Both the position numbers and the translations under genes were made by a program. The notes beneath the pieces are model-generated. The model did not search any database. It was not told the DNA's origin and was given only the letters and a program-made list of their open reading frames with translations. A DNA stretch of 20,487 nt from the IMG/VR virus record IMGVR_UViG_3300017735_000139, positions 1 to 20,487 of that record; one strand, given 5' to 3'. Source of the stretch: a virus. Positions 3,467 to 19,895 of the stretch are shown here, in pieces; the stretch's first letter is position 1; each line of letters begins with the position of its first letter.

Positions 3467-3751
3467 CTACAGTCCTTGCTCTTTCATGAATCTCAGCAAT
3501 TTTGCACGAGTTAAGGTGAACTTGTCGTCCTCCTCATAGCGAGCAACCAAATCTTGTATGGCTCTTTCAGCGGCGGAAACCCTTGGCTCACACTGGCAAC
3601 CACTGGCTTTGGTTATTTCTTCCAGCAGTTCGCTTTTAATTTTATGTATCTCTCCAGCCACAATCTCAGCAACGTAGGACTTCACCCAATCACGCTGTAT
3701 GCCCGTCAGTTTTGTTGAGCCTTCTATGGCCTTTGCGTTTGGTAGTGTCAT
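3467..3751 (-). CDS. Unknown 94-aa late protein, mostly helical
   Basis: No family is recognised. The sequence is predicted helical and charged, with a C-Q-C pair near residue 53 and a basic end (T-R-A-K-L-L-R-F-M-K). It begins inside the portal stop codon (ATGA overlap) and ends one base before the tail fibre, so it is expressed together with structural genes. It could be a head-tail adaptor, scaffold or fibre-attachment factor, but the sequence gives no direct support for any of these. Confidence 0.6.
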   Translation of the reverse strand: MTLPNAKAIEGSTKLTGIQRDWVKSYVAEIVAGEIHKIKSELLEEITKASGCQCEPRVSAAERAIQDLVARYEEDDKFTLTRAKLLRFMKEQGL

Positions 3752-5631
3752 TCGCCCATCCTCTTTAGGTTGCCCTTTTCAATCTCACGTTCCATTTGCT
3801 CTTGAGGCATGATGTTCGCACCACGCATCTTTTCCATCATGGATATTTGCTGAGAGGGAGTTGGGCCTTGCTCTTGCTCTTGCTGGGTAATCTTGAACTG
3901 TTCTAAGTCGCTGACACCCATAGAACGGATAGCTTCTTCTGCAATCTTGCCGACTTTGTATTCCATGTTCAGTCCAGTCTGGCCCATGACTTGAAGCATG
4001 TTCATCCATGTCTCTGCATTGCGAGTTGGCTCAACCGGAAGCGTGCCGTCTACGACTAGGTAGTCGATGTCGCCTTGCAACATGCTGATGTCAAAGTCTA
4101 GGTAGTCGTCCTTAATCATGTTGGTCAGTTCGCCGGGGCTATCTCCGCCCGTAATGCGAAGTGAGCCTTCATATTCTAGGGCGTCTTGTAAGTTCCCGAC
4201 CATCATCCTCACGAGAGGACGCACCGTAGTTGACGACATGATACGAGAAATAACACCAAGTCGTTGAGAGCCAAGCTGGGTAAGACGCTGGATTTCTGTG
4301 GCTGTCCGTATGCCATCCGCTGTAGGCATGCCCTGCTGGGCGTCTGAAGCGGCAGATACTCTTTGCTTTAAGTCGGACATAGCGCCAATGTCTTGCCAGT
4401 GGCCGCGTGTTACATCTGGTATCTCTGCGATGAACACACCGTCACCGGGCTTTGTACCGGGGAGAGTACGCACAAGCCCCCACGGATTTCTGTCAATTAA
4501 GTCTGGGACACTGACAGAGGTCGGGTCTACGAATATTAGGTTGTTTAGAGCCGCCTGCACGTTGTCGACACGGCTACGAAGTAGCCATGTGCTTATTTCG
4601 TGTAGAGGAAGTAGTAAGTCGTACAGTGATTGGCCGTATGTCTTGTGGCTGTCGTGGTACAGGCCGCCGATTGTGACGGGGAACTGCCGCCCATACGGGT
4701 TTAGACGGCAGTTAATAACCGCGCCTTCGTCCAGAATAGTCACTAGCAACCAAACTTGTTCTAGGTTGTCGAGGCCAAGCTCGTAACCATTGAAGCGTAC
4801 CCACGCCTCATCGACTATGCGGCTGTCCTGTAGTGTGAAGTGGTAGCCGTTCTCTTGCCCTTGAGGTTCTTCGGGGTTGATTGAAAGGCCACGCCCTTCT
4901 TCTTTGAACCAGCCGTGAGCATCCCATGAATGACGTACACCTTCTTTGCGGCGTAGTCCCGGATACTTGGCGACTTTGGGGTATTGGTTAGAACCGAGCA
5001 GGGCATTGGTACTCATGTGGTCTGTAAAGACTATGAACTGCATCCTTTCCCAGTCTCCCCACTGAACACGGGGGTCTGGGAAGCATCTGCGCGGGTCAAA
5101 GTTCACAATGTCGTTTGTCTTTGTCGTAGCGTTCCACACACACTTAGTCGGAGCGAAGCCGTAGCGGATGGAGTCCAAGAGCATCTGTGCAAGCCGCGCC
5201 TCGCCTGCGGTGCGTCGCATGTGCTGGTGCAGTAGGCGCTCAAGTATCATACTTGATTGGCGCGACTTACGATTGAGTCCCTCTAATTGGAACATAGGGT
5301 TGCGGCCTGCTAGGGCAGACATGAGGTATGTGAGTACGGTGTCAGCGATAGCGCGTGTATCTGCTACGACTACCTTCTCGCGAAACTTTGTAGCGTTCTC
5401 TGGAACCCAAACGTCGTGTGCGCGGTCAGCATCCCGCCAATGGTCGTAGCGGCGAGAGATACGCTCATGAGACATCTTGGTGCAGGCGCGTACATAATCA
5501 ATGAGTTTGGTCTCTTGGTCGTCAGAAAGCATGTCACTGATATCCTCGTAGGCCATTAAAGGCTCTGCGAGGTTGCTGAGGTCTACGACTACGTCGTTCT
5601 TTGAGGGGCTGGTCATAGTCTTATAGCGCAT
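3748..5631 (-). CDS. Phage portal protein (627 aa)
   Basis: The length, its place just after the terminase large subunit, and the sequence pattern all fit a portal. The N-terminal part (about 60-200) has V-V-V-A-D-T-R-A-I-A-D-T-V-L-T-Y-L-M and an F-D-P-R-R-C-F-P-D-P segment. The middle contains the long helical region S-R-V-D-N-V-Q-A-A-L-N-N. Around 442-446 is R-T-A-T-E, the 'TATE'-type motif that recurs in portals before the long crown helices. The portal forms the dodecameric ring through which DNA enters and leaves the capsid. The start is supported by GGGGAG seven bases upstream, and its ATG shares one base with the terminase stop (TGATG). A second Met at codon 6 lacks a comparable site. 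The C-terminal 40 residues are Gln/Glu/Met-rich. Confidence 0.85.
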   Translation of the reverse strand: MRYKTMTSPSKNDVVVDLSNLAEPLMAYEDISDMLSDDQETKLIDYVRACTKMSHERISRRYDHWRDADRAHDVWVPENATKFREKVVVADTRAIADTVLTYLMSALAGRNPMFQLEGLNRKSRQSSMILERLLHQHMRRTAGEARLAQMLLDSIRYGFAPTKCVWNATTKTNDIVNFDPRRCFPDPRVQWGDWERMQFIVFTDHMSTNALLGSNQYPKVAKYPGLRRKEGVRHSWDAHGWFKEEGRGLSINPEEPQGQENGYHFTLQDSRIVDEAWVRFNGYELGLDNLEQVWLLVTILDEGAVINCRLNPYGRQFPVTIGGLYHDSHKTYGQSLYDLLLPLHEISTWLLRSRVDNVQAALNNLIFVDPTSVSVPDLIDRNPWGLVRTLPGTKPGDGVFIAEIPDVTRGHWQDIGAMSDLKQRVSAASDAQQGMPTADGIRTATEIQRLTQLGSQRLGVISRIMSSTTVRPLVRMMVGNLQDALEYEGSLRITGGDSPGELTNMIKDDYLDFDISMLQGDIDYLVVDGTLPVEPTRNAETWMNMLQVMGQTGLNMEYKVGKIAEEAIRSMGVSDLEQFKITQQEQEQGPTPSQQISMMEKMRGANIMPQEQMEREIEKGNLKRMGE

Positions 5632-7244
5632 CAGATTTCTCCCCAGCCTCTAAAATTTTCGTCTTTACCAACTTGTCGTTCCCACCATTTGTCGTCGTTG
5701 CCTGTGTTAAATTGGGCAGACAATGAAGAACCCATATTGATAGGCGAGTTTAGTAGCTCGCTTGCTTGTCCGCCCATTTTTGATAAAGCGGCAAGCCCCA
5801 TTGATAAGGCGTCAATCATGTCGTCGTGCTTCCCATTCGGAAATGACTGAGCCTCGTCCATGAAGCTATCAAGCCATAATGCCTCATTCGGTATGAAAAC
5901 TCGTCCCCCCTCTACAAGAGGCAGTACAGAGTTTAATCTGGAGACCTTATCGGTTCCGACCTTCACGGGAATTACCGACATACCTGATTGAGTTCGTAGC
6001 TCTTGAATGAGGGATTGGCCTGACGCTTTGTCCTCGACATACATGCCGCGCAAGCCCCTGCCGCGCCATTTAGCGTTCAAGGTAATGGCGGCACGTTTAA
6101 GTTCTGGGAAGTCATACCTCTCACGAACAATGTCCAGAATGTGCATGTCCGCATTGTTGTCCATACCCAAGACCATCATTACGCTGTAGTCAGCGGTCTC
6201 TGTTTTCTTAAAGGCGGTATCGCAAGAGATAATGATGGTATTGCAATCTGGCTCCTCTGCCTTTCTCCACCATCCCGACTTAATAAGATTACCACCACGG
6301 ATATAGGGAGATTGCTGATAGAGTGAGGCAAATTCTCTGGGGTCTAGTCTTTCTCGCTTTTTAAGCTCTTCGATTGGGAATCTGTCTGGCCACAGGGCTT
6401 CTTCTCTTGCTTCGTAGTAGTGACGTTTCGATGGTGATACTTTACTGAGTTCGCCCTGCGGTATGAAGCGAGGGTCTTCTTCTGGCAGTTCAGCCACACT
6501 CCTCTTGACATTAGTATCCTTACTCCTGATTGCTGGGAAGTTGATGTGCGCCCATGCGCCCTCCTTCCAGTCTTCAGTCTCCATGATACGCCCAGCCAAG
6601 TCGTCCGGGTGCCACCGCGTCAGGATAACTATTTCTATTGGTGCCGCGCCGTTTGGCTCTGGTTGCTTACGAGTGGTAAGAGCAGACACATAATATGACC
6701 AAGTCTTGTTGCGCTGAGTCGCGCTGTCGGCTTCTTCACGAGCTTTAACGGGGTCATCAATGAGCAAAAGAGTGGCCGCACGACCAGTCGTAGAGCCGCC
6801 CATGCCAGTTGCGTAGTATGAACCGCCGAATGTAGTGCGCCAGTCGTCTACTGCTTTGGATTCTTCCGACATATAAAAGTCAGGAAACGCTTGGCTAATG
6901 ATTGGCTCACGCGCATGGTCTCTTGTCTGACGCCCGAAAGTTTTAGCAAGGTCTTGGTTGTAAGACGTCGCAAGAACATTTCTATTTGGTCGGCGAGCAA
7001 GGTAATACACCGGAAAAAGAGTTGACGCCAACCAAGATTTGCCATGTCGTGGCGGCATAGTAATAAGAAGACGTCGGCATCCAAGAGTGTCTTTCTCAAG
7101 CCTATCCAACGTGTCAATGAGTTCCATTTGGAAGTCGGCCAATTCAAAATCTGGGTAAAGTGCTTTAACAAATCCATGAAAATTATCCTTCGCTTGAGCT
7201 ATTTTGAGCAGTCGTTGAGCCGCTTGCTGGGGTGTCAGTGCCAT
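5631..7244 (-). CDS. terL: Terminase large subunit (537 aa)
   Basis: All catalytic elements of a packaging terminase are present. The ATPase has Walker A P-P-R-H-G-K-S (64-70), Walker B L-L-L-I-D-D (159-164) and the coupling motif T-R-W-H-P-D-D (209-215). The RNase-H-like nuclease has S-C-D-T-A-F (D342), Y-V-E-D-K (E404) and H-D-D-M-I-D-A-L (D474, D475, D478). The enzyme pumps DNA into the prohead through the portal and cuts the concatemer. The ATG is preceded by AGAGG at normal spacing although it lies 62 bases inside the upstream small gene. The nearest pattern I know is the TIGR01630/Terminase_6C type. No defect is seen, so it should be functional. Confidence 0.96.
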   Translation of the reverse strand: MALTPQQAAQRLLKIAQAKDNFHGFVKALYPDFELADFQMELIDTLDRLEKDTLGCRRLLITMPPRHGKSWLASTLFPVYYLARRPNRNVLATSYNQDLAKTFGRQTRDHAREPIISQAFPDFYMSEESKAVDDWRTTFGGSYYATGMGGSTTGRAATLLLIDDPVKAREEADSATQRNKTWSYYVSALTTRKQPEPNGAAPIEIVILTRWHPDDLAGRIMETEDWKEGAWAHINFPAIRSKDTNVKRSVAELPEEDPRFIPQGELSKVSPSKRHYYEAREEALWPDRFPIEELKKRERLDPREFASLYQQSPYIRGGNLIKSGWWRKAEEPDCNTIIISCDTAFKKTETADYSVMMVLGMDNNADMHILDIVRERYDFPELKRAAITLNAKWRGRGLRGMYVEDKASGQSLIQELRTQSGMSVIPVKVGTDKVSRLNSVLPLVEGGRVFIPNEALWLDSFMDEAQSFPNGKHDDMIDALSMGLAALSKMGGQASELLNSPINMGSSLSAQFNTGNDDKWWERQVGKDENFRGWGEI

Positions 7245-7976: not shown

Positions 7977-8366
7977 ATGCAGAATACTACACACACACCT
8001 GACGTACATTCCGTGACCATGACCGCGATGGAAGCTAACGCTTCCAAGGGCAACGCCATCATAGCTGGCATCGGCTCAATGGCGGCCGCACGCGCCACGA
8101 TTGCACACGACTCACCGTCCGACTTCGTGACGGCTGTGTCAGCTTCGCTGAAGCAACGCCTTGCGGATTACGATGCCAAGGGTCTCGCGCATAACTCGGC
8201 GCGCTTCGCATCAACGTCCAAGGCCATCGCGATGCTCACAGTTGCGCCTGCGCCAATCACACCGCCTGCGCCAGTGCATACTGCGCCATCTCGTGCGACC
8301 AAGGCCGAGTTGCAAGCTCAGCTTGCTGAGTTGCAGGCATTCGTGACTGCGCTTACCGCCAAGTAA
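7977..8366 (+). CDS. Stand-alone early protein of unknown function (129 aa), Ala-rich
   Basis: No family recognised. The protein is Ala-rich and probably helical through residue 95. It then has a Pro/Ala linker (A-P-A-P-I-T-P-P-A-P, about 94-103) and a short C-terminal coiled coil (A-E-L-Q-A-Q-L-A-E-L-Q-A-F). There is no signal peptide and no cysteine. It has an almost ideal ribosome-binding site (TAGGAGGT, five bases before ATG), its own structured leader, and a 14-bp intrinsic terminator 17 bases after the stop. Together these imply a separate, abundant transcript. It is the first gene of the early arm, where phages often place host-takeover or anti-defence proteins. That role is inference from position only. 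Confidence 0.8.
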   Translation: MQNTTHTPDVHSVTMTAMEANASKGNAIIAGIGSMAAARATIAHDSPSDFVTAVSASLKQRLADYDAKGLAHNSARFASTSKAIAMLTVAPAPITPPAPVHTAPSRATKAELQAQLAELQAFVTALTAK

Positions 8367-8383
8367 TCACGACTAACCCCAAT

Positions 8384-8423
8384 AGCCCCTCTCACGCGCC
8401 GTGCGTGGGAGGGGCTTTTTTTT
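8384..8423 (+). terminator. Strong rho-independent terminator
   Basis: A 14-bp stem (8384-8397 with 8403-8416, one G-T pair, loop GCCGT) is followed at once by a run of eight T (8416-8423). It ends the transcript of the 129-aa gene. Genes downstream therefore need their own promoter or read-through. Confidence 0.92.
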
Positions 8424-9193: not shown

Positions 9194-9337
9194 ATGGTTG
9201 GAAAATATCACGTCATCACCACGCCTCGCGGCTACGCCGTGAGGTGCATCTTAACCGGATACATCGAAGCCAAGTCGCGTACACGCGCACAGGCTGAGCG
9301 TATCTGCAATCTCATGAACAAAGGGAGTTCAACATGA
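9194..9337 (+). CDS. Unknown 47-aa basic protein
   Basis: The frame runs from ATG at 9194, one base after the previous stop, to a TGA that overlaps the next ATG (ATGA). The product is basic. It has a beta-like start (K-Y-H-V-I-T-T-P-R-G-Y-A-V) and then a helix (T-R-A-Q-A-E-R-I-C-N-L-M-N). This resembles a small beta-beta-alpha fold, but no family is recognised. Coupling at both ends supports expression. Confidence 0.55.
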   Translation: MVGKYHVITTPRGYAVRCILTGYIEAKSRTRAQAERICNLMNKGSST

Positions 9338-10131
9338 AATCGAAAGTAATCTCACGCACCAATCGCGAAAGACTGGCAACCATCCTGACTGTGTTCGCTT
9401 GCAAGGACGAGTTCAAGCCCATTATGGACAAGTACAACGAGGCTTGCGACTTGCTGACACCAATACACGATAAAATCCTCGACGACATTGACGCCTTGCC
9501 CGACTTGGCCAAGCGATTTGTCAGAGTTCATGTGGATGAGAGTATGGAAGTTGACATGGACAAGCCTGTGTACGACTTGCGTACAGTCTACAACATGGTC
9601 AATCCATTCTATGGCGACGAACAACGATACGGACAGATGGCCTTTGGTGATGGCGACGTCATTGAGGTCACGAGTGCGGAGCGGTTCGGCTTCAATGTTG
9701 AGCAAGACCAGTTTGATTGGGACAAGTCTCTGTTCCCAAAAGACCGCCATTTTAGTTGCGTCTTTAGCGACATGCGCTACGCGTATGTGAAGTCCAACCG
9801 CACAATCTCGTCACGAAGCGGAACCACCGTCCCTGATGAGTACCTAGCAGACTTGCAACCAGCCCTAGCCGCCAAGGCTTGGGCAACCAGCATGCACTGT
9901 GCCTTGTCCGACAACATGCGGAGTATGGCTCGTGAACTGACCGAGAACATCGAGACTGCCAAGACTACGAAGAATCTCGTAGCCGCATGGCCGGAGGCCG
10001 AGCCATTCGTGGCCAAGTTGTACCCCGAATGCACAGACAGTGGGGTGCAGTCGACTTGCGAGACACCGCTCGGCAACATCATCTTGCGTCACATCAAGCA
10101 ACTGCCAGCACCAGCACAGGCGGCTGAGTAA
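9334..10131 (+). CDS. 265-aa early protein, possibly related to the Nmad5 family
   Basis: The protein is soluble and mixed alpha/beta. Near residues 208-224 it has K-T-T-K-N-L-V-A-A-W-P-E-A-E-P-F-V. I recall an 'L-x-x-x-W-P-E' motif of this kind near the C-terminus of phage proteins labelled nucleotide-modification-associated domain 5. The N-terminal helix begin (R-T-N-R-E-R-L-A-T-I-L) is also compatible. This link is a memory-based hint, not established. GGGAG stands before the ATG. The last residues are Ala/Pro-rich. It is coupled to neighbours on both sides (ATGA, TAATG). Confidence 0.7.
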   Translation: MKSKVISRTNRERLATILTVFACKDEFKPIMDKYNEACDLLTPIHDKILDDIDALPDLAKRFVRVHVDESMEVDMDKPVYDLRTVYNMVNPFYGDEQRYGQMAFGDGDVIEVTSAERFGFNVEQDQFDWDKSLFPKDRHFSCVFSDMRYAYVKSNRTISSRSGTTVPDEYLADLQPALAAKAWATSMHCALSDNMRSMARELTENIETAKTTKNLVAAWPEAEPFVAKLYPECTDSGVQSTCETPLGNIILRHIKQLPAPAQAAE

Positions 10132-10328
10132 TGGAAGCATTCGTCATAGACAAAACCAACAGTGGCGACGACTACCTATACGTCGACGTTCCCTCGCATG
10201 GTTTGACAGTAATGATAGGCAACGGAGATGACGGCGTCACTGTCGACATGTATCCGATGGCCGAAGTTTGGGATGAACCAATCGCCGCAATCTGGGCGAC
10301 AACTACGGAAGGAGCAAACCATCAATGA
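10131..10328 (+). CDS. Unknown 65-aa acidic protein
   Basis: It starts in the TAATG overlap with the preceding gene and ends inside the next start codon. It is strongly acidic with many Asp and Gly residues (G-N-G-D-D-G-V-T-V-D) and likely all-beta. No family recognised. A DNA-mimic role is conceivable for such a small acidic early protein, but the charge alone does not show it. Confidence 0.65.
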   Translation: MEAFVIDKTNSGDDYLYVDVPSHGLTVMIGNGDDGVTVDMYPMAEVWDEPIAAIWATTTEGANHQ

Positions 10329-10849
10329 ACCGATTTGTCACGAACCTTTGTCCAAAGATTGCCGCGCAAGACCAGTGTGACAAACATCTACGCAAAATGC
10401 TTATCGAAGAAGCGCAGATGTTGTCGACTGCACTGCATGACAATCACCCGCACATGTATCGTGACGACTTATACAAGCCAGTCCATCAGGGGCATCCATG
10501 CACCCTGTGGGCAGGTGAGTCATGTTCAAACTGGCTGTGGGCATACAAGCATTGGCAAGGTCTTGCCGATGAGTATGAGTTCCGGTTCGGTAATGCCGAC
10601 CACAAAACCATTCGTATCATGCGGCCACTGTTGCATGAGGTACGAAACCGCGTTGACTTCATGACTTCATGGGACAACGTCAACCACACACCACACCCAC
10701 AATGCTTTGGCGACTGGCCTCACAAGACTAAGGAGGACTGGCCTGTCACGGCATACCGTTCATACATTCGCGACTACAAAACCACAGTAATGAAGGAGAT
10801 GAAGTGGACACGTCGCACTCAACCCCAATGGTTCACAAGGAGGCCATAA
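10325..10849 (+). CDS. Pyrimidine-dimer glycosylase-family-like phage protein (174 aa)
   Basis: The pattern matches a widespread phage family: A-A-x-D-x-C-D-K-H-x-x-K-M-x-x-E-E-A-Q-M-L-S-T-A (about 13-36), then Y-K-P-x-H-x-x-H-P-C-T-x-W-A (50-63), then S-x-x-N-W-L-W and L-A-D-E-Y-x-x-R-F-G-N (68-90). I know such proteins as a conserved group sometimes labelled pyrimidine-dimer DNA glycosylase / Pyr_excise-like. The conserved Cys, His and acidic residues suggest an active or metal-binding site, but the activity of this subgroup is uncertain. AAGGAG stands about ten bases before ATG. It may repair or nick DNA. No truncation is seen. Confidence 0.7.
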   Translation: MNRFVTNLCPKIAAQDQCDKHLRKMLIEEAQMLSTALHDNHPHMYRDDLYKPVHQGHPCTLWAGESCSNWLWAYKHWQGLADEYEFRFGNADHKTIRIMRPLLHEVRNRVDFMTSWDNVNHTPHPQCFGDWPHKTKEDWPVTAYRSYIRDYKTTVMKEMKWTRRTQPQWFTRRP

Positions 10850-11110: not shown

Positions 11111-11152
11111 AAACCCCGAAGGGGTTTGGGGAGAACAGTGAGTGGCTGTTCT
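11111..11152 (+). promoter_or_regulatory. Leader hairpin pair before the CobS-like gene, copy B
   Basis: AAACCCC-GAA-GGGGTTT (11111-11127) is a perfect 7-bp triloop stem followed by GGGG, then a second perfect stem AGAACAG-N7-CTGTTCT (11132-11152). It starts seven bases after a stop codon, and the start codon comes 37 bases later. No T-run follows, so it is not an ordinary terminator. It repeats the element at 7890-7944 in both sequence (first hairpin) and layout. Confidence 0.5.
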
Positions 11153-11189: not shown

Positions 11190-13190
11190 ATGCTTGATAC
11201 CATCACAATCGCATCGGAAGCAGTCAAGGCTTCCCACACCACCGACAACACAAGTCGTGCCGCGCTTCGCAAGATTGCTCGCACGGTCATCAACGATAGC
11301 AGTGTTGTTACCACCGACATGAAGTCGAACTTCCAAGCGCGGACTGGCGAGAGTTTCAACGGCATGATTGACAAGGTGCATCGCAACGTACTCTTGAACA
11401 TCATCTCCGATGGCTTGTCCACTGCGACTGGCATCCCTGACTCCATGCAAAAGTGCATGGACAAGATAGCTGAATCTTGGAACGACGACAGCAAATGCCA
11501 ACCAGCCGAGCGAGGTGGCGGCGTAAGTCGTGGCTATCATAAAGACTTCCAGCGAGTCGAGAATGCTGTCGCTCACATCAATGGTCACGCTGGTAAGCAT
11601 GACATTCACAAAGGGCTTTGGCGCAGTGACATGAAACTCAACGCCTTTGGTGACGCCATACAGTGTGCGGCTAGTATGATAATCGACCAGTTCGGTTTGC
11701 CTAAACCTACGCACTTTGACGTTAATACCCCTGACGTCAAGTCTCGTTACAACATGCGTATCGTCAACCGCATGATGGACGACTTGCCAATCGACAGGAG
11801 CAACAACGACCTTGTCGATGGCATACAGGATAACATCTATAGTCGCGACTATGACAATGCGCCAGTCGATTACGATTCACTCAGCACCGCACAGCAAGAG
11901 CGTGTCGAAGACCTAACCAAGCGTTACATCCAGATGTATGACATATCTGGTGAGTTGAACGCCGACGATGGCCAACGCCTTGAGAAGAATGAATCACCCA
12001 ACAACAACAGCATTGTGGTTGACCCCAACCTCAAGCAAGGCGTTGACCTCATGCTCAACCAAGCGACACAGGGTAAGGTGACTGACATCAACGTGTTGAT
12101 TGAGGGCATCGCTCGTAACACTCAGCTTGAGGAAGAGTTGAGTAAGCTACGCGATGCACAGATGGTGCCTAACTTCGCAACGTCTGGCACTGATGTCGTT
12201 GATGAGTCGACGCTGACTTACGAAGTCGTGATGCGTAAGGCCAGTGACATCTTCCTCTCGCCTGCTGGCAAGAAGTCACCCAAGCTAGACTTCGATGTGC
12301 CAACGCTAGTCTGGCGCAACGATGCTGGTGATGAGGTTCGTCACCCTATGTGTCCTGAGATTGACCACACCTACCAGTTCCGGCAGTACATGCTCATTAA
12401 GTTCTTGTCGGCCATCAAGTTTGGTCACAACTCATGGCTCCACGGTCACACTGGTACTGGCAAGACGACATTCGTCGAGCAGGTAGCCGCTTGGTGTGGC
12501 GTTCCAGTCGAGCGACTTAACCTTGACTCGAATCTTGAGCGGGCTGACGTCATTGGTGGCAAAGAGATTGAGGTCGATAACGGTTCGCCTATCACGGTGT
12601 ATCGTGAGGGTATCTTGCCTCGTGCTATGGCCAAGCCATGTTGGTTTATCTGCGATGAGATTGATGCTGGTCGTGCCGACATGTTGTTCGTCTTGCAACG
12701 TGCGCTTGAGGGCAAGGGGCTGACAATCACCGAGGATGCAGGACGTGTCGTCAAACCACACGACTTGTTCCGCTTCGTCGCAACAGCCAACAGTCGTGGG
12801 CAGGGTGATGAGTTCGGGTTCTATGCTGGTGTTCGCCCCATGAACATCGCCATGCTCGACAGGTTCACCATGTTTATTGAGGTTCCGTATCTCGACAAGG
12901 ACGATGAGATGCGGTTGCTCAAGACTGCGTATCCCAAGATGACAGAGAATGAGCGGTCAGAGTTCTGCGAGTTCAGTCAGAAGGTACGTCAGGCATTCTG
13001 CAACGGCGAGATTAGCAAGACGCTATCGCCTCGTGGTCTGCACTCAATGGCGAGTTACTATCTGCACTTCAAATCGTTGATGCCTAACGACGAGGCACGA
13101 CTTGAGGCCGCCAAGGTGGCTGTGATTGATGCGGCCCCGGCTGACAATCGTCACACCATTGAGCAGATGTTCACAACTCTAGTCGGGTAA
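11190..13190 (+). CDS. CobS-like AAA+ (MoxR-type) ATPase with long N-terminal extension (666 aa)
   Basis: The AAA+ module fills about residues 385-600: Walker A G-H-T-G-T-G-K-T (419-426), Walker B W-F-I-C-D-E-I-D (485-492), sensor-1 A-T-A-N-S (530-534) and an arginine finger in M-L-D-R-F (R558). Segments such as R-L-N-L-D-S-N-L-E-R-A-D-V-I-G and D-E-I-D-A-G-R-A-D-M-L-F-V-L-Q-R follow alphaproteobacterial CobS closely. CobS is about 330 aa, so the first about 380 residues are additional and unassigned (helical, charged). The start is ATG 11190, with AAAGGAG about ten bases upstream. A longer reading from GTG 11142 would run through the leader hairpin. It pairs with the VWA protein encoded next but one. 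Such pairs remodel or unfold partner proteins using ATP, and in CobST they drive cobalt insertion. Confidence 0.88.
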   Translation: MLDTITIASEAVKASHTTDNTSRAALRKIARTVINDSSVVTTDMKSNFQARTGESFNGMIDKVHRNVLLNIISDGLSTATGIPDSMQKCMDKIAESWNDDSKCQPAERGGGVSRGYHKDFQRVENAVAHINGHAGKHDIHKGLWRSDMKLNAFGDAIQCAASMIIDQFGLPKPTHFDVNTPDVKSRYNMRIVNRMMDDLPIDRSNNDLVDGIQDNIYSRDYDNAPVDYDSLSTAQQERVEDLTKRYIQMYDISGELNADDGQRLEKNESPNNNSIVVDPNLKQGVDLMLNQATQGKVTDINVLIEGIARNTQLEEELSKLRDAQMVPNFATSGTDVVDESTLTYEVVMRKASDIFLSPAGKKSPKLDFDVPTLVWRNDAGDEVRHPMCPEIDHTYQFRQYMLIKFLSAIKFGHNSWLHGHTGTGKTTFVEQVAAWCGVPVERLNLDSNLERADVIGGKEIEVDNGSPITVYREGILPRAMAKPCWFICDEIDAGRADMLFVLQRALEGKGLTITEDAGRVVKPHDLFRFVATANSRGQGDEFGFYAGVRPMNIAMLDRFTMFIEVPYLDKDDEMRLLKTAYPKMTENERSEFCEFSQKVRQAFCNGEISKTLSPRGLHSMASYYLHFKSLMPNDEARLEAAKVAVIDAAPADNRHTIEQMFTTLVG

Positions 13191-13200
13191 GGAGGAAGCG

Positions 13201-13374
13201 ATGCCTAGATACGAAGTAACCCGAAGCTATACTGTTATATGCGTAGCTACAGTTGAAGCTGATACGCATGACCATGCAGAAGAAATAGCTTGTGATTCTG
13301 GTGACATACACTGGAAAGAATATGATGGTGACTATGATACCGAAGTATATGTAGAGGAGATTGTAAATGACTAA
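13201..13374 (+). CDS. Small acidic protein (57 aa), DpnD/PcfM-like in pattern
   Basis: ATG follows an excellent AAGGAGG site and the frame ends eight bases inside the next gene. The peptide starts M-P-R-Y-E-V-T-R-S-Y-T-V, then V-E-A-D-T-H-D-H-A-E-E-I-A, then W-K-E-Y-D-G-D-Y-D-T-E-V. This 'Y-x-V-x-A-x-x-x-x-E-A' layout resembles small DpnD/PcfM-like phage and plasmid proteins. Its codons (gaa, gat, tat, gta) look more AT-rich than those of both large neighbours. It sits between the ATPase and the VWA gene, so it may serve that complex. Confidence 0.65.
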   Translation: MPRYEVTRSYTVICVATVEADTHDHAEEIACDSGDIHWKEYDGDYDTEVYVEEIVND

Positions 13375-15472
13375 ATACATACCAGAAACAGCGGCACTCG
13401 ACGACGTCGTCATGACAGGTGATGACTTGATGGATGCTACCAGTAAGAACGTGCGGACGTTCTCGACTGACCATGACACTGACTGCATATTCGTCGGTGA
13501 TGGTGCGGCAACCGATGGTGACACGGTGTATCTGCCTAGTCTGAATGGCGATGCCGATGTGACCAAGCGGCAAGCACTCGTGCTTGGTGGGTTCGCACTG
13601 CACGAGACACTGCACAAACTACTGACCGACTTCCGATGGTTCAAGAAGAAGGTCAAGGGCTGGTCGGTATTCACCAAGTCTATGCACAATGCCATTGAGG
13701 ATGTGCGTATCGAGAATGGTGGGCGTGTTCTATATAATGGCTTGCCCAAACAGGTCGACAAGACTGCGCGTGAGGTCAACCGCAAGTTCATTGATGAAGT
13801 GTATCGTGACCGCCCCGAATGCGTGAAAGACTTTGGGGTTATCGGGCCAGTCGCAGTGACGTGGGCGGGCCGCAAGGCGCTTGGCTATGACGACCCATCC
13901 AATGAGGAAGCGCTAAGTCTTCTGCCCAATGACATCCGCAAGCGTGTCGAGCGCATCGCACAGCAAGCCATGAAGCTGGATACTGGTGTCCGTGGCATGG
14001 GTCAAGTCGACCAACGTGCGGCATTCAATGGATGTAAGAAGGGTGGCTTGCTTGCCGAGCGTATCACCAAGCAGTTGGAAGAAGAGTTGGAAGAGAAACA
14101 GAAACAGAAACAGCGTGTGGGAGAAGAAGGTAATGGCACAACGGAACAGCAACGTGATGAGAACGAACAAGGGCAAGAACAATCTGGCACCGGAGGGTCA
14201 GAGCAGACGTCAGGCGAGAAGACACTTGGCGAAGATGGAGCGGGTCAAGGCGAGGAAGCAGGCAAGTCTCGCGACAAAATGAAAGACACCGATGGCAAAC
14301 CGTCCGACAGCCAACAGAAGTCTGGCAATGGCATCGGCAACGGTGGCAACGATACCTACGGTGAGATGGTCAAGGACATCGACCCGATTGACCCGAACAT
14401 CGACGCCGCCGCTAGTCGTATCGTCGATGAGATAAATCAGTCTGACCCAACAGGCTATCGTGTTTGGTGTCCATCTGCTGATGAGTTGCACACTCGGTAC
14501 AATGATAACCGACTTAATGGTTTACGCTTTGGGCAAGGCGGTGGTCGCAAGCTGTTCGATGAATCCAAGAAGCGAAGCGGCGGTGCCTTGTCGACTATCC
14601 GTCGTAAGTTGGAGCGTGTGTTGCTCGAAGCCAAGGAATCCATGTGGGAAAACGGCAAGCGTTCTGGTCGCATGGATGTGCAACGCAACGCGACTAAGAT
14701 AGTTCAGCTACGTCCCAATGTGTTCCGTCGTCGTGAGACAGAGCAGGCTGTGAACAGTGCGCTTACCATCCTGATTGACCAGTCGGGTTCAATGGATGAT
14801 GGCGTCAAGATTGAGTTGGCACAGCAGACAACCATCGCAATCTTGGAAGCCCTTGAGCCAACACAAGTACCAGTCGAGGTGATTGGTCACAACACTGGCG
14901 GCGTACCTAATCGCACCGACTACGACAGGAAGAAACGTCAGCAGAAACGCAAGGCCAGTATAAATGCGGCTGAGTATGGTCGTGGCAGAGTTACAGTCGA
15001 CAAAGATTATGGTCGGTACAACAAGATTGATTACTTCTTGTACAAGTCTTTTGAGGACAGCTTGTCTGTGTGTCGTGAGTCACTAGGCTGGATGGTTCAA
15101 ACGACTAAGGGTTCCAATGCTGACGGCGATGCCGTCCGGTATGCGGCAAAGCGTTTGCTTCAGAGACAAGAGCCTCGCAAGATACTGTTCGTGTTGAGTG
15201 ACGGTGCGCCAGCTTGGTACAGCGACACACATGACAAGCACCAATGGACTAGAGATTGTGTTGAATGGTGCAAGCATCAGGGCATTCATGTTGTCGGGCT
15301 TGGCATGTTGGATGGCTCGGTTGCTAGTTATTACCCCGACTACATTGTAGTTCACAACATTGATGACTTCGCCAAGACCTACATAAATAAGATTGCCAAG
15401 ATGTTGCTTGGCAAGGGTGAGATTAACCACGATGCAATGAAGACAGGGGTTCGCCGTGGCACGAAAATGTAG
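13367..15472 (+). CDS. CobT-like VWA protein with zincin-like N-terminal motif (701 aa)
   Basis: Three regions are visible. Residues 70-120 hold H-E-T-L-H (79-83), followed by N-A-I-E-D-V-R-I-E (108-116), the HExxH-plus-downstream-Glu layout of gluzincin metallopeptidases and of VWA-like metallopeptidase proteins (DUF2201 type). Residues about 232-330 are a low-complexity Glu/Gln/Gly/Lys linker. The C-terminus from about 465 is a von Willebrand A domain with MIDAS D-Q-S-G-S (471-475), a downstream Asn/Asp-rich segment G-S-N-A-D-G-D-A (583-590) and L-S-D-G-A-P (610-615), arranged as in CobT. The upstream ATPase would be its partner. GGAG lies seven bases before ATG. Peptidase activity is a hypothesis, and the MIDAS looks intact. 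No CobN-like large chelatase subunit is present here. Confidence 0.88.
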   Translation: MTKYIPETAALDDVVMTGDDLMDATSKNVRTFSTDHDTDCIFVGDGAATDGDTVYLPSLNGDADVTKRQALVLGGFALHETLHKLLTDFRWFKKKVKGWSVFTKSMHNAIEDVRIENGGRVLYNGLPKQVDKTAREVNRKFIDEVYRDRPECVKDFGVIGPVAVTWAGRKALGYDDPSNEEALSLLPNDIRKRVERIAQQAMKLDTGVRGMGQVDQRAAFNGCKKGGLLAERITKQLEEELEEKQKQKQRVGEEGNGTTEQQRDENEQGQEQSGTGGSEQTSGEKTLGEDGAGQGEEAGKSRDKMKDTDGKPSDSQQKSGNGIGNGGNDTYGEMVKDIDPIDPNIDAAASRIVDEINQSDPTGYRVWCPSADELHTRYNDNRLNGLRFGQGGGRKLFDESKKRSGGALSTIRRKLERVLLEAKESMWENGKRSGRMDVQRNATKIVQLRPNVFRRRETEQAVNSALTILIDQSGSMDDGVKIELAQQTTIAILEALEPTQVPVEVIGHNTGGVPNRTDYDRKKRQQKRKASINAAEYGRGRVTVDKDYGRYNKIDYFLYKSFEDSLSVCRESLGWMVQTTKGSNADGDAVRYAAKRLLQRQEPRKILFVLSDGAPAWYSDTHDKHQWTRDCVEWCKHQGIHVVGLGMLDGSVASYYPDYIVVHNIDDFAKTYINKIAKMLLGKGEINHDAMKTGVRRGTKM

Positions 15473-16757: not shown

Positions 16758-17177
16758 ATGGATACAACGCAACAAATTGAGTCGCTGGAGTTCCGGCTTA
16801 ACAAGTTAGAGAAACTTGTAGACTTGATTATTGTGCGCGAAGACAGCCACAAGATTAAGTCTGAAAAACTAGCTAGTCCTTTGGACTACACGTCGAAGCA
16901 ACACGCCGTCATGCAAATGTTGTATGCGGGAATGTCGACTAAGGAAATGACTGACATGCTGATTGTGAGCGAAGGAACAATCAAGGTTCACATATCTTCC
17001 ATCATGAAGAAGTCGGGAATGCGAAGCCGCTCCCAAATACCAGCCTTGTATGAGGACTGGTTGGATAGGCTATCGCCTGACCAATACCGACGCCAATCTG
17101 GTATCCCGATGGGATGGGCAACAGAGCCAGAGAAGTATGAGGCCGTCACCAAAATGTTAAGGATGAAAATGCGATGA
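16758..17177 (+). CDS. LuxR/GerE-type helix-turn-helix regulator (139 aa)
   Basis: Residues about 43-95 form a GerE-type DNA-binding domain: Y-T-S-K-Q-H-A-V-M-Q-M-L-Y-A-G-M-S-T-K-E-M, then S-E-G-T-I-K-V-H-I-S-S-I-M-K-K-S-G as the recognition part. A short leucine-zipper-like helix precedes it (I-E-S-L-E-F-R-L-N-K-L-E-K-L-V), suggesting dimerisation. No receiver or autoinducer-binding domain is present, so control is probably by dose. GAGGAGA precedes the ATG. The gene overlaps the integrase by ATGA, so both are made from one mRNA. A role in the lysis-lysogeny choice or in integrase control is inferred from this coupling. The C-terminal 35 residues are unassigned. Confidence 0.85.
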   Translation: MDTTQQIESLEFRLNKLEKLVDLIIVREDSHKIKSEKLASPLDYTSKQHAVMQMLYAGMSTKEMTDMLIVSEGTIKVHISSIMKKSGMRSRSQIPALYEDWLDRLSPDQYRRQSGIPMGWATEPEKYEAVTKMLRMKMR

Positions 17178-18217
17178 CACTAAGACTGAAGAAACAAAAC
17201 GGTCAATGGTATGTCGATGGCACGATTGCCGGAGTGAGAGTCCGGCAGTCGACCAAGCTACCAGCGACACCGCAATACAAGGCGCTCGCAGAACGCGAGC
17301 GTCTAAAACTTGAGAGCGATGCCATACACGGTAGCTTGGGTGGCAATCGTATTAACGTGACATTCCGTGAGGCATGTGACGACTATATCAAATGGAAGCG
17401 AGTCGAGGGCAAGTCGACTTCACGCGCTGAGATTTCACTGGATAAAGTTTGCGAGACTCTGGGTTCGGTCAAGTTGCCAGACTTGTCGACTCAGACCTTG
17501 CAAGTCTTCGCCGCCGGGGCGTGGCCGGGATGCAAGCCCGGTACAGTTAAGCGCAACATGGGTGTGGTGAGGGCGGTGTTGAACTATGCGGCAAAGGTGA
17601 ACCAAGGTTACACTGCTCCGCATGTCGAGATGCCCAAGGTGAATGATGCGAGAGACATCCACTTCGACGAGGGACAGGCGACTGCCTTTCTGAATTGGGT
17701 GCGTGACGAGTACCCGATGTTCGACATCCACTTCACGACTTTGGTTGATACTGGTGTGCGGCTCAACGAAATGCTTTCGATTCGCTCGACCAGCTTTGGC
17801 GATGATGTCGTGCGTATTCGTAAGAGAGTTGCGCTTAGTGGCAAGACTGTGAGCCGAGACATTCCACTGACCCCTGACATGTTAAGGGTGCGTGGGTTGT
17901 GTGTCCCGAAGAGGGCAACTGAGCCATTGTTCTTGTCGCTGACAGGGAGTGAACTTAACCCGATGCTTGCGACCAAGACGCTCAACAAAATATTGAAGCT
18001 GGGTTGCAAGGCTATGGGCTTACCACATGAGGGCGATGCGGCCATGAGAGTGCATGACCTACGCCATACGTTTGCTTATCTCACAGCAAAAGCAGGGGCA
18101 GATATAGGTGACTTACAATATTTATTAGGGCATGAAGACATCAGTCAGACAATGCGCTATAGGGGCTTTATCCAAAGCCGAGCAAGGACTTTTGTTAGTA
18201 GCATGCGTTGTGCATGA
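17174..18217 (+). CDS. int: Tyrosine-recombinase integrase (347 aa)
   Basis: Catalytic residues of the tyrosine-recombinase fold are in place: Arg in L-V-D-T-G-V-R-L-N-E-M-L (R196), H-D-L-R-H (H294, R297), L-L-G-H (H320) and the nucleophile in Q-T-M-R-Y (Y329). The N-terminal about 60 residues are a small beta arm-binding-like domain and residues about 62-150 the core-binding helices. Length is normal. It would join attP to a host tRNA gene. It is coupled to the LuxR-type regulator, and the putative attP starts 75 bases after its stop, the classic arrangement. Confidence 0.96.
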   Translation: MTLRLKKQNGQWYVDGTIAGVRVRQSTKLPATPQYKALAERERLKLESDAIHGSLGGNRINVTFREACDDYIKWKRVEGKSTSRAEISLDKVCETLGSVKLPDLSTQTLQVFAAGAWPGCKPGTVKRNMGVVRAVLNYAAKVNQGYTAPHVEMPKVNDARDIHFDEGQATAFLNWVRDEYPMFDIHFTTLVDTGVRLNEMLSIRSTSFGDDVVRIRKRVALSGKTVSRDIPLTPDMLRVRGLCVPKRATEPLFLSLTGSELNPMLATKTLNKILKLGCKAMGLPHEGDAAMRVHDLRHTFAYLTAKAGADIGDLQYLLGHEDISQTMRYRGFIQSRARTFVSSMRCA

Positions 18218-19220: not shown

Positions 19221-19453
19221 TGTATGAAGTCCTCTTCAAATTCCACAGCCATCTGAAGCATAGCGCCCTCAACGATTATGTCGGACAGGGCGACTGCACT
19301 ATCTGTTGTTAAGTACATGTTGATGTCGCCAATGGTTAGAATAATACCATCATGAATTACCTCTACTTGAGGCACTATCTTTATCGGTTCGTTCTCCGAA
19401 ATCACTGCGGTTGAATGCGACTGCCCGACATAGTCGGATGAACTCGTTGTCAT
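19217..19453 (-). CDS. Unknown 78-aa acidic protein overlapping the HNH gene
   Basis: The C-terminal two-thirds (E-V-I-H-D-G-I-I-L-T-I-G-D-I-N-M-Y-L, then S-D-I-I-V-E-G-A-M-L-Q-M-A-V) looks like a folded acidic alpha/beta protein. The ATG start has AAGGGA eight bases upstream but lies 104 bases inside the HNH gene. A GTG at codon 30 would shorten the product to about 50 aa and avoid most of the overlap, but lacks a good site. No family recognised. Confidence 0.55.
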   Translation of the reverse strand: MTTSSSDYVGQSHSTAVISENEPIKIVPQVEVIHDGIILTIGDINMYLTTDSAVALSDIIVEGAMLQMAVEFEEDFIQ

Positions 19454-19895
19454 CTAATGTTCCCTTCATCATGTTTGCGGCTTGGCACACCAGTTGGATA
19501 TTGTCTGGTGTGTAGGGCAAGTCGGGTTCGATACGGTCTATCGAAATGTTGTATGGGTTTTTGATACCTGAACCATCACGGTAGTTTTCCATCTTTAATC
19601 CAGACAAGGCGCACTTACCATCTTGCAAGTCGTACTTGTGCCAGACATCTTCATGAGTGATGCCGAAGTGTATGTTGGGGTCGCGCTTCAGTCGGGCATA
19701 ACGTAACTGTTGCAATGCTCTTTGCATGTAATGCTTCGGGTCGGAGTTGCACTTTCTGTTTCGCGCTGTGTTCTTACAGCTACGGCATTGCGGTTGAACT
19801 TTCGGACGACCTCCGTGTCGGCGTGAGTTGTAACTGTAAAATTCTTGTAACGCTAATTTTCTATGACAAGAGGTACACTCTCGTACCTCTGGCAA
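19350..19895 (-). CDS. HNH endonuclease with N-terminal zinc finger (181 aa)
   Basis: The N-terminus has C7-x2-C10 and C37-x2-C40, a zinc-binding pair (C-T-S-C, C-R-S-C). The HNH core is C-A-L-S-G (95-99), then I-S-I-D-R-I-E-P (117-124), Y-T-P-D-N-I-Q-L-V-C (128-137) and N-M-M-K-G (141-145), as in free-standing phage HNH nucleases. It could be a homing nuclease or a packaging cofactor, since HNH proteins assist some terminases. The start is TTG, three bases after the preceding stop; no ATG lies upstream in frame before the conserved part. A hairpin covers its first codons. Confidence 0.85.
   Translation of the reverse strand: MPEVRECTSCHRKLALQEFYSYNSRRHGGRPKVQPQCRSCKNTARNRKCNSDPKHYMQRALQQLRYARLKRDPNIHFGITHEDVWHKYDLQDGKCALSGLKMENYRDGSGIKNPYNISIDRIEPDLPYTPDNIQLVCQAANMMKGTLDDNEFIRLCRAVAFNRSDFGERTDKDSASSRGNS
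19869..19890 (-). promoter_or_regulatory. Hairpin over the first codons of the HNH gene
   Basis: AGAGGTAC-N6-GTACCTCT is a perfect 8-bp inverted repeat within codons 2-9 after the TTG start. In the mRNA such a stem so near a weak start codon would reduce translation. It may also be chance. Confidence 0.35.

Follow-up and report, generated by a model that had tools for sequence, protein, structure and literature searches.

The 20.5-kb IMG/VR virus record IMGVR_UViG_3300017735_000139 (positions 1 to 20,487; this whole stretch is referred to below as the window), from a marine phage, carries two neighboring genes on its + strand, whose products resemble CobS and CobT of the bacterial cobaltochelatase. 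We favor, with a probability of roughly 55%, the reading that the two proteins form a remodeling machine with a metallopeptidase-type N-terminal domain (N-domain), not a cobaltochelatase. The components of this reading differ in strength. The pair very probably works as an ATP-driven MoxR-AAA+/VWA protein-remodeling machine, and cobalt chelation is in all likelihood not its main role; for the N-domain, the sequence evidence tips slightly toward an active peptidase.

The cobT-like gene (13367..15472, + strand) encodes 701 residues that comprise an N-domain, a linker and a VWA domain. The N-domain (residues 1-244; 13367..14098) is a homolog of the N-domain of bacterial CobT (PF06213) and contains the zincin motif HETLH (residues 79-83; 13601..13615), followed by EDVRIE (residues 111-116; 13697..13714) in the context AIEDVRIE. 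E111, located 28 residues past H83, is a candidate third metal ligand. A charged low-complexity linker rich in Gly, Asp, Glu and Gln (residues 245-405; 14099..14581) leads to the VWA domain, or CobT_C (residues 452-681; 14720..15409), which has an intact metal ion-dependent adhesion site (MIDAS) of the sequence DQSGS (D471-S473-S475; 14777..14791) and a conserved SDG at residues 611-613. The protein exceeds the Pfam cut-offs for both PF06213 and PF11775 (CobT_C). The length, the HETLH and E111 residues, the charged linker and the MIDAS are all as given in a preliminary description made from the DNA letters alone.

That description had set the conservation of H79, E80, H83 and E111 beforehand as a test of the peptidase idea, and these residues are kept in 60 to 62 of 62 dereplicated viral proteins. 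The count started from an alignment of 88 viral-type proteins made with no motif filter, of which 62 remained after dereplication; the invariance seen in an earlier alignment, the rows of which had been chosen for HExxH and ED...E, was set aside as evidence and recounted without the filter. E80 is present in all 62 proteins, G125 and E116 in 61, H79, H83, E111, D112 and P57 in 60, and N108 and G75 in 58, with H79, E80, H83, E111, D112 and E116 all ranking in the top eight of the N-domain by conservation. These viral proteins are mostly 20-35% identical, and the spacing from the second His to the Glu ranges from 23 to 36, mostly 32. Among full-length relatives from viral contigs, HExxH is found in 76/76 and cobS lies upstream in 73/76; the downstream ED...E (73/76) and DxSGS (76/76) counts are biased high, as the relatives were retrieved by patterns on the ED or MIDAS motifs. 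HExxH was not a retrieval criterion, barring one of the 76 or the planctomycete or Poseidonocella loci, for which the pattern included it. A scan of viral contigs with a single protein yielded no relatives, and an alignment query was used instead. Upon shuffling of the first 260 residues of one relative, HExxH appeared in 1.5% of trials; compared with its presence in all 76 relatives, the motif is therefore more than chance. PF06213 is matched by 48 of 50 viral N-domains, and phage PhiR41_1, whose listed host is Escherichia coli K-12 MG1655, carries HEVAH and ALEDVFIE.

Judged by its sequence, bacterial CobT is a relative of the viral protein that is devoid of the HExxH...E site. We sampled 50 bacterial CobT proteins from the PF06213 matches in Alphaproteobacteria, taken from both ends of the score range; HExxH occurs in none of them, whereas DNSGS is present in all, usually with cobS adjacent. 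The viral and bacterial N-domains nevertheless align over one domain (hhalign probability 98.7%, E 1.6e-16), in which HExxH is replaced in place: the viral RGyvDHEaGHvrhTD corresponds to the bacterial RGxADxxALRxRHHD, and the later E..R.E is retained in most bacterial CobT. The CobT of the solved cobaltochelatase complexes reads in the bacterial style, RGLGDSMALRQARHN. In a tree of the C-terminal part, nine bacterial CobT rows group together (support 100) and three changes of motif label are required; the tree, built by a quick method, is unrooted, leaves 25 of 55 inner branches open and gives no direction of loss versus gain.

Structure prediction of the N-domain gave a confident AlphaFold model, with a mean predicted local distance difference test score (pLDDT) of 96.6 and a predicted TM-score (pTM) of 0.92. 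It consists of strands 39-42, 53-56 and 64-66, a helix 67-86 that bears HETLH, a short helix 89-96, and a helix 101-122 that bears E111, an order of elements that in this model is as expected of a zincin-like domain. Its matches among viral predicted structures are other phage CobT/VWA proteins, including one of a haloarchaeal virus. Several observations weigh against a functional peptidase, in addition to the retrieval bias mentioned above. A fold search of the PDB with the model returned no match at E<=0.001 (best E 0.2); the weak matches include ArdC (0.73) and several M32 carboxypeptidases, the recurrence of which is a hint only. Viral N-domains match none of the Pfam peptidase families, and hhalign runs against M48, M32 and one DUF2201 protein gave insignificant probabilities of at most 6.8%, in a comparison of low power where M48 against M32 also failed. 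Moreover, a metal site without protease activity would conserve HExxH...E too. Finally, the isolated phages nickie (DSEIS) and ANB28 (DREVS), which are the histidine exceptions, keep the pair without HExxH, so that cleavage would be dispensable in them. The proposal that the zincin part may cleave a target is thus consistent with the conserved residues and the element order, but it finds no significant counterpart among solved structures and does not extend to nickie and ANB28. These two phages, along with bacterial CobT, which keeps the domain without the motif, fit the alternative that the zincin-like domain is a docking platform only and HExxH is structural. We regard such a degenerate scaffold as improbable, as near-universal ligands and a catalytic Glu at mostly 20-35% identity exceed the needs of a scaffold.

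The partner gene, cobS-like (11190..13190, + strand, from ATG), encodes a MoxR-clade AAA+ ATPase of 666 residues, or 682 from an alternative GTG start at 11142. The CobS/AAA_5 match of its AAA+ core begins at about residue 374-417. Compared to the bacterial CobS of ~328 residues, it has 330-380 extra N-terminal residues, which bears out the preliminary description in coordinates and length and brackets the ~380 extra residues claimed there. In the model of this extension (residues 1-380; 11190..12329), the helical region 1-135 is good and residues 136-275 are mostly of low confidence. Such an extension is shared by relatives from phages of the type of Roseobacter phage CRP-810 (OR671924; total roughly 520-780 residues) and absent from bacterial CobS as well as from the SSU5/cyanophage-type phage CobS of about 350-430 residues. 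The Walker A motif GHTGTGKTT (residues 419-427; 12444..12470) and the Walker B acidic pair D489-E490 (12654..12659) are intact, as are sensor 1 and the Arg finger, and the catalytic residues G419, G424, K425, D489, E490, N534, R558 and R615 are invariant in 41 aligned sequences. The core model is closest to CbbQ (CbbQ2) and NorQ (TM-score ~0.8 on target). An intact MoxR-clade ATPase that adjoins a VWA gene and whose core lies closest to NorQ/CbbQ and CobS agrees with the remodeling pair proposed at the outset.

The bacterial cobaltochelatase subunits CobS and CobT (cryo-EM chains such as 9uka and 9ujv) are homologous to the viral proteins over the AAA+ core, the CobT N-domain and the VWA domain. 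They differ in that bacterial CobT lacks HExxH, CRP-810-type viral CobS has the long N-terminal extension, and the viruses lack a CobN partner. This homology to both chelatase subunits is one argument for regarding the pair as auxiliary metabolic genes (AMGs), by which phage CobST would join host CobN and boost cobalamin output. Viral CobST has been proposed to act with host CobN for cobalamin (PMC8651126), and the CRP-810 paper treats cobS/cobT as B12 AMGs (PMC11288001). Furthermore, the Poseidonocella genome that hosts such a prophage encodes CobN as well as a CobT of its own, and B12 is required by class II ribonucleotide reductase (RNR) and other enzymes. However, CobN (PF02514) was found in 0 of 52 virus records, including the window, which is a fragment. 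The window proteins also score far below the NCBI equivalog cut-offs, with 162.3 bits against 558.55 for the CobS-like protein (TIGR01650) and 98.4 bits against 759.05 for the CobT-like protein (TIGR01651). On these two grounds a chelatase is unlikely, in line with the doubt expressed in the preliminary description. In addition, phages with the pair infect E. coli K-12, and the E. coli control genome yielded no CobN. Conservation in the viral N-domain is highest at the zincin residues, which are missing from bacterial CobT. No large RNR subunit was found in the complete CRP-810 genome, and there is thus no visible class II RNR to supply in this phage; B12 supply for a phage class II RNR was set aside for the CRP-810 type. 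An RNR match is present in 14 of 39 cobST records, mostly of other phage types. Altogether, the metabolic explanation appears quite improbable.

The presence of CobT and CobN was also compared in bacteria. Among 142 alphaproteobacterial genomes, CobT was detected in 107, CobN in 55 and both in 52; CobT without detected CobN in 55 of 107 is an upper bound, as many of the genomes are drafts. The control genome of Caulobacter vibrioides has CobT, with CobN not detected, and Caulobacter cobT is reported to influence fitness under EDTA (PMC11870441). The 55 genomes and the Caulobacter control suggest a CobN-independent role of bacterial CobST.

A mechanism for the favored remodeling machine may be drawn from NorQ and NorD, which share an AAA+ ring of the same clade and, in NorD, the N-domain/linker/VWA layout of the phage CobT-like protein, and whose known role is iron insertion. 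NorD is not among the listed structural matches of the phage N-domain model. In the published account of NorQD (PMC13036017), the AAA+ ring carries the VWA domain, a finger of which reaches into the pore, and one of the ring subunits is bound by the N-domain; the linker joining the two domains is stretched as ATP drives rotation, and the action proposed for NorQ is to twist VWA against the N-domain. By analogy, the CobS-like protein would form a ring, and the CobT-like protein would dock on it with its VWA end, the MIDAS of which would grip a target protein at an acidic site. Hydrolysis of ATP might then shift the VWA end relative to the N-domain via the flexible linker, and the HExxH...E site, presumably binding zinc, would most likely act on the held target as a metallopeptidase. 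The machine would probably act on a protein of phage or host origin that it encounters early in infection, close to DNA replication or repair. The same parallels can also be read as a metal-handling chaperone, which would put the HExxH...E metal into, or take it from, a phage or host metalloenzyme in the manner of NorQD, with no peptide cleavage. The closest characterized relatives, NorQD (PMC13036017) and CobNST, indeed insert metals, and the reported EDTA effect of cobT disruption in Caulobacter (PMC11870441), whose control genome has CobT and no detected CobN, points the same way. On the other hand, the metal-inserting bacterial CobT has no such site, and the most conserved residue is E80 (62/62), which in a peptidase is the catalytic Glu and not a ligand; yet E80 is retained in the nickie and ANB28 proteins despite the lost histidines, hence its invariance has another cause, at least partly. 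We consider the chaperone unlikely, though it merits more weight than a scaffold or a metabolic role.

The genomic context assigns the window to a known phage type. Its TerL (5631-7244, - strand) is 57.3% identical to that of CRP-810 over 99% of the length, and both share the gene order cobS-cobT-...-LuxR-integrase; given this kinship and order, the window phage is of the CRP-810 type. The portal (3748-5631), TerL and the tail-region genes are on the - strand, and the + strand block that carries the pair closes with a LuxR/GerE-type regulator (16758..17177) and a tyrosine integrase (17174..18217), both positioned as in CRP-810. According to the CRP-810 paper, nearly every member of the family, among 251 related uncultured genomes, has cobS and cobT, and most have an integrase (PMC11288001). 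CRP-810 itself bears HEAGH and ALEDIWLE; the passages of the paper that were read have no mention of a protease motif and give cobT the role of activation of the lower ligand base, which belongs to a different CobT (PMC11288001). In contrast to TerL, the CobT and CobS proteins of the window and CRP-810 are only ~30% and ~28% identical, which may reflect fast change or exchange of the pair inside one phage family. Between the two genes lies a small open reading frame (57 aa, MPRYEVTRSYTV...; 13201..13374, + strand) behind AGGAGG, a good Shine-Dalgarno sequence; it overlaps the cobT start and is missing from the list of open reading frames, which has a 60-aa limit, and phage T5S1 likewise has a small open reading frame between the pair genes.

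In other phages, the pair adjoins DNA ligase and DNA polymerase III (SSU5, nickie, Cyrano and, in part, ANB28), primase and helicase (ICP2), a polymerase (T5S1), or gp46 and gp45 (P-HM1). Among 103 neighbor proteins, four of them from the window, phrog_624 is the commonest family, followed by primase, helicase and polymerase families. The window has a phrog_624 'DNA binding protein' (10325..10849, + strand); phrog_624 overlaps pyrimidine-dimer glycosylase, and a relative of the window protein in locus L011 matches that glycosylase family (PF03013). In many phages the pair thus has genes for replication or repair as neighbors, which suggests that it acts early and in connection with one of these processes, with gene order being weak evidence. 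This context also bears on the published idea closest to ours. Iyer et al. (2021) reported that group 2.2 jumbo phages have a MoxR ATPase whose vWA partner bears a metallopeptidase domain at its N terminus (ASV44728 and ASV44729), and suggested virion assembly (PMC7824862). The architecture equals that of the window pair, as compared by description only. The core idea of a metallopeptidase-vWA and MoxR pair in jumbo phages is already published (PMC7824862); it was described for jumbo phages only and without the CobS/CobT label. On this proposal, the window pair might be a virion-maturation machine in which metallopeptidase-VWA and ring process and assemble structural proteins; an archaeal virus needs a MoxR-vWA pair for tail assembly (cited in PMC7824862), and the pair is kept in tailed viruses of many kinds. 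In the window, however, the pair shares the + strand with the regulator and the integrase, whereas the structural genes occupy the - strand, and in other phages its neighbors are DNA polymerase, primase/helicase, ligase or clamp genes, although operon position is weak evidence. A role in virion maturation is therefore rather doubtful, standing about level with the chaperone.

The preliminary description had mentioned single cobS genes in marine phages, but in the examples checked cobS has a partner. Next to cobS, both cyanophage P-HM1 and Stenotrophomonas phage DLP6 have a 'peptidase' that is a cobT-like gene (HEVGH/HEIGH, EDIRIE/EDARIE and DWSGS/DQSGS, respectively). The P-HM1 'peptidase' (phrog_459) combines HEVGH, EDIRIE and DWSGS in one protein, the N-domain of the T4-like cyanophage 'peptidase' matches the viral profile (E 8e-10), and the DLP6 'peptidase' is matched by 463 phage records, mostly cyanophages. 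These data suggest that the cyanophage 'peptidase' and CobT-like labels denote one protein. Compared to the window, the T4-like cyanophage pair forms a far branch with reversed gene order and a short CobS. Outside of viruses, a chromosomal pair of an AAA+ gene (AAA_5/CbbQ_C) and a zincin-motif CobT-like gene (HEAGH, AIEDEWIE) is present in the Planctomycetota metagenome-assembled genome FR_30 (L092:4298-8505), just upstream of ResIII/EcoEI_R_C restriction-type helicase, type I specificity subunit and HipA-like genes. Zincin-motif N-domains are rare in this phylum (2 of 149 genomes, one weak).

Other features of the window were recorded as well. A 265-aa protein at 9334-10131 has a sub-threshold match to Nmad5, a nucleotide-modification-associated domain (E 4e-4), and a 181-aa protein at 19350-19895 (- strand) has Cys pairs (CTSC...CRSC) that look HNH-like by eye, with no Pfam match. 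Directly after a small open reading frame (7977-8366), a 15-pair GC-rich hairpin followed by seven T (8384-8416) is, from its sequence, a strong candidate for an intrinsic terminator; apart from this hairpin, promoter and terminator counts in the window are near chance. PADLOC reported no defense families.

Our searches of open-access papers found none that joins the CobS/CobT label, the cyanophage peptidase and the jumbo phage pair. Beyond the published core idea, what is new here is the link to the CobS/CobT label, including the cyanophage 'peptidases', the in-place divergence of viral and bacterial CobT, and the 55 of 107 CobT genomes without detected CobN. On a broader and more tentative view, to which we give somewhat less than even odds, viral 'CobST' would be an ATP-driven metallopeptidase family across podo-, sipho- and T4-like phages, several hundred cyanophages included, that has been misfiled as a B12 AMG; the CobT of bacterial cobaltochelatase would be the branch that lacks the protease site, and CobST in bacteria would often be CobN-independent. 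Studies of marine viruses routinely list cobS and cobT among the viral genes for vitamin B12. Should the viral form be a remodeler with a protease site, the B12 reading would be wrong for the pair in hundreds of phages, including T4-like cyanophages, and a handful of residues would be a simple predictor of whether a given CobT protein could cut. CobN was not detectable in about half of the alphaproteobacterial CobT genomes sampled, which raises the question of what role bacterial CobST plays there.

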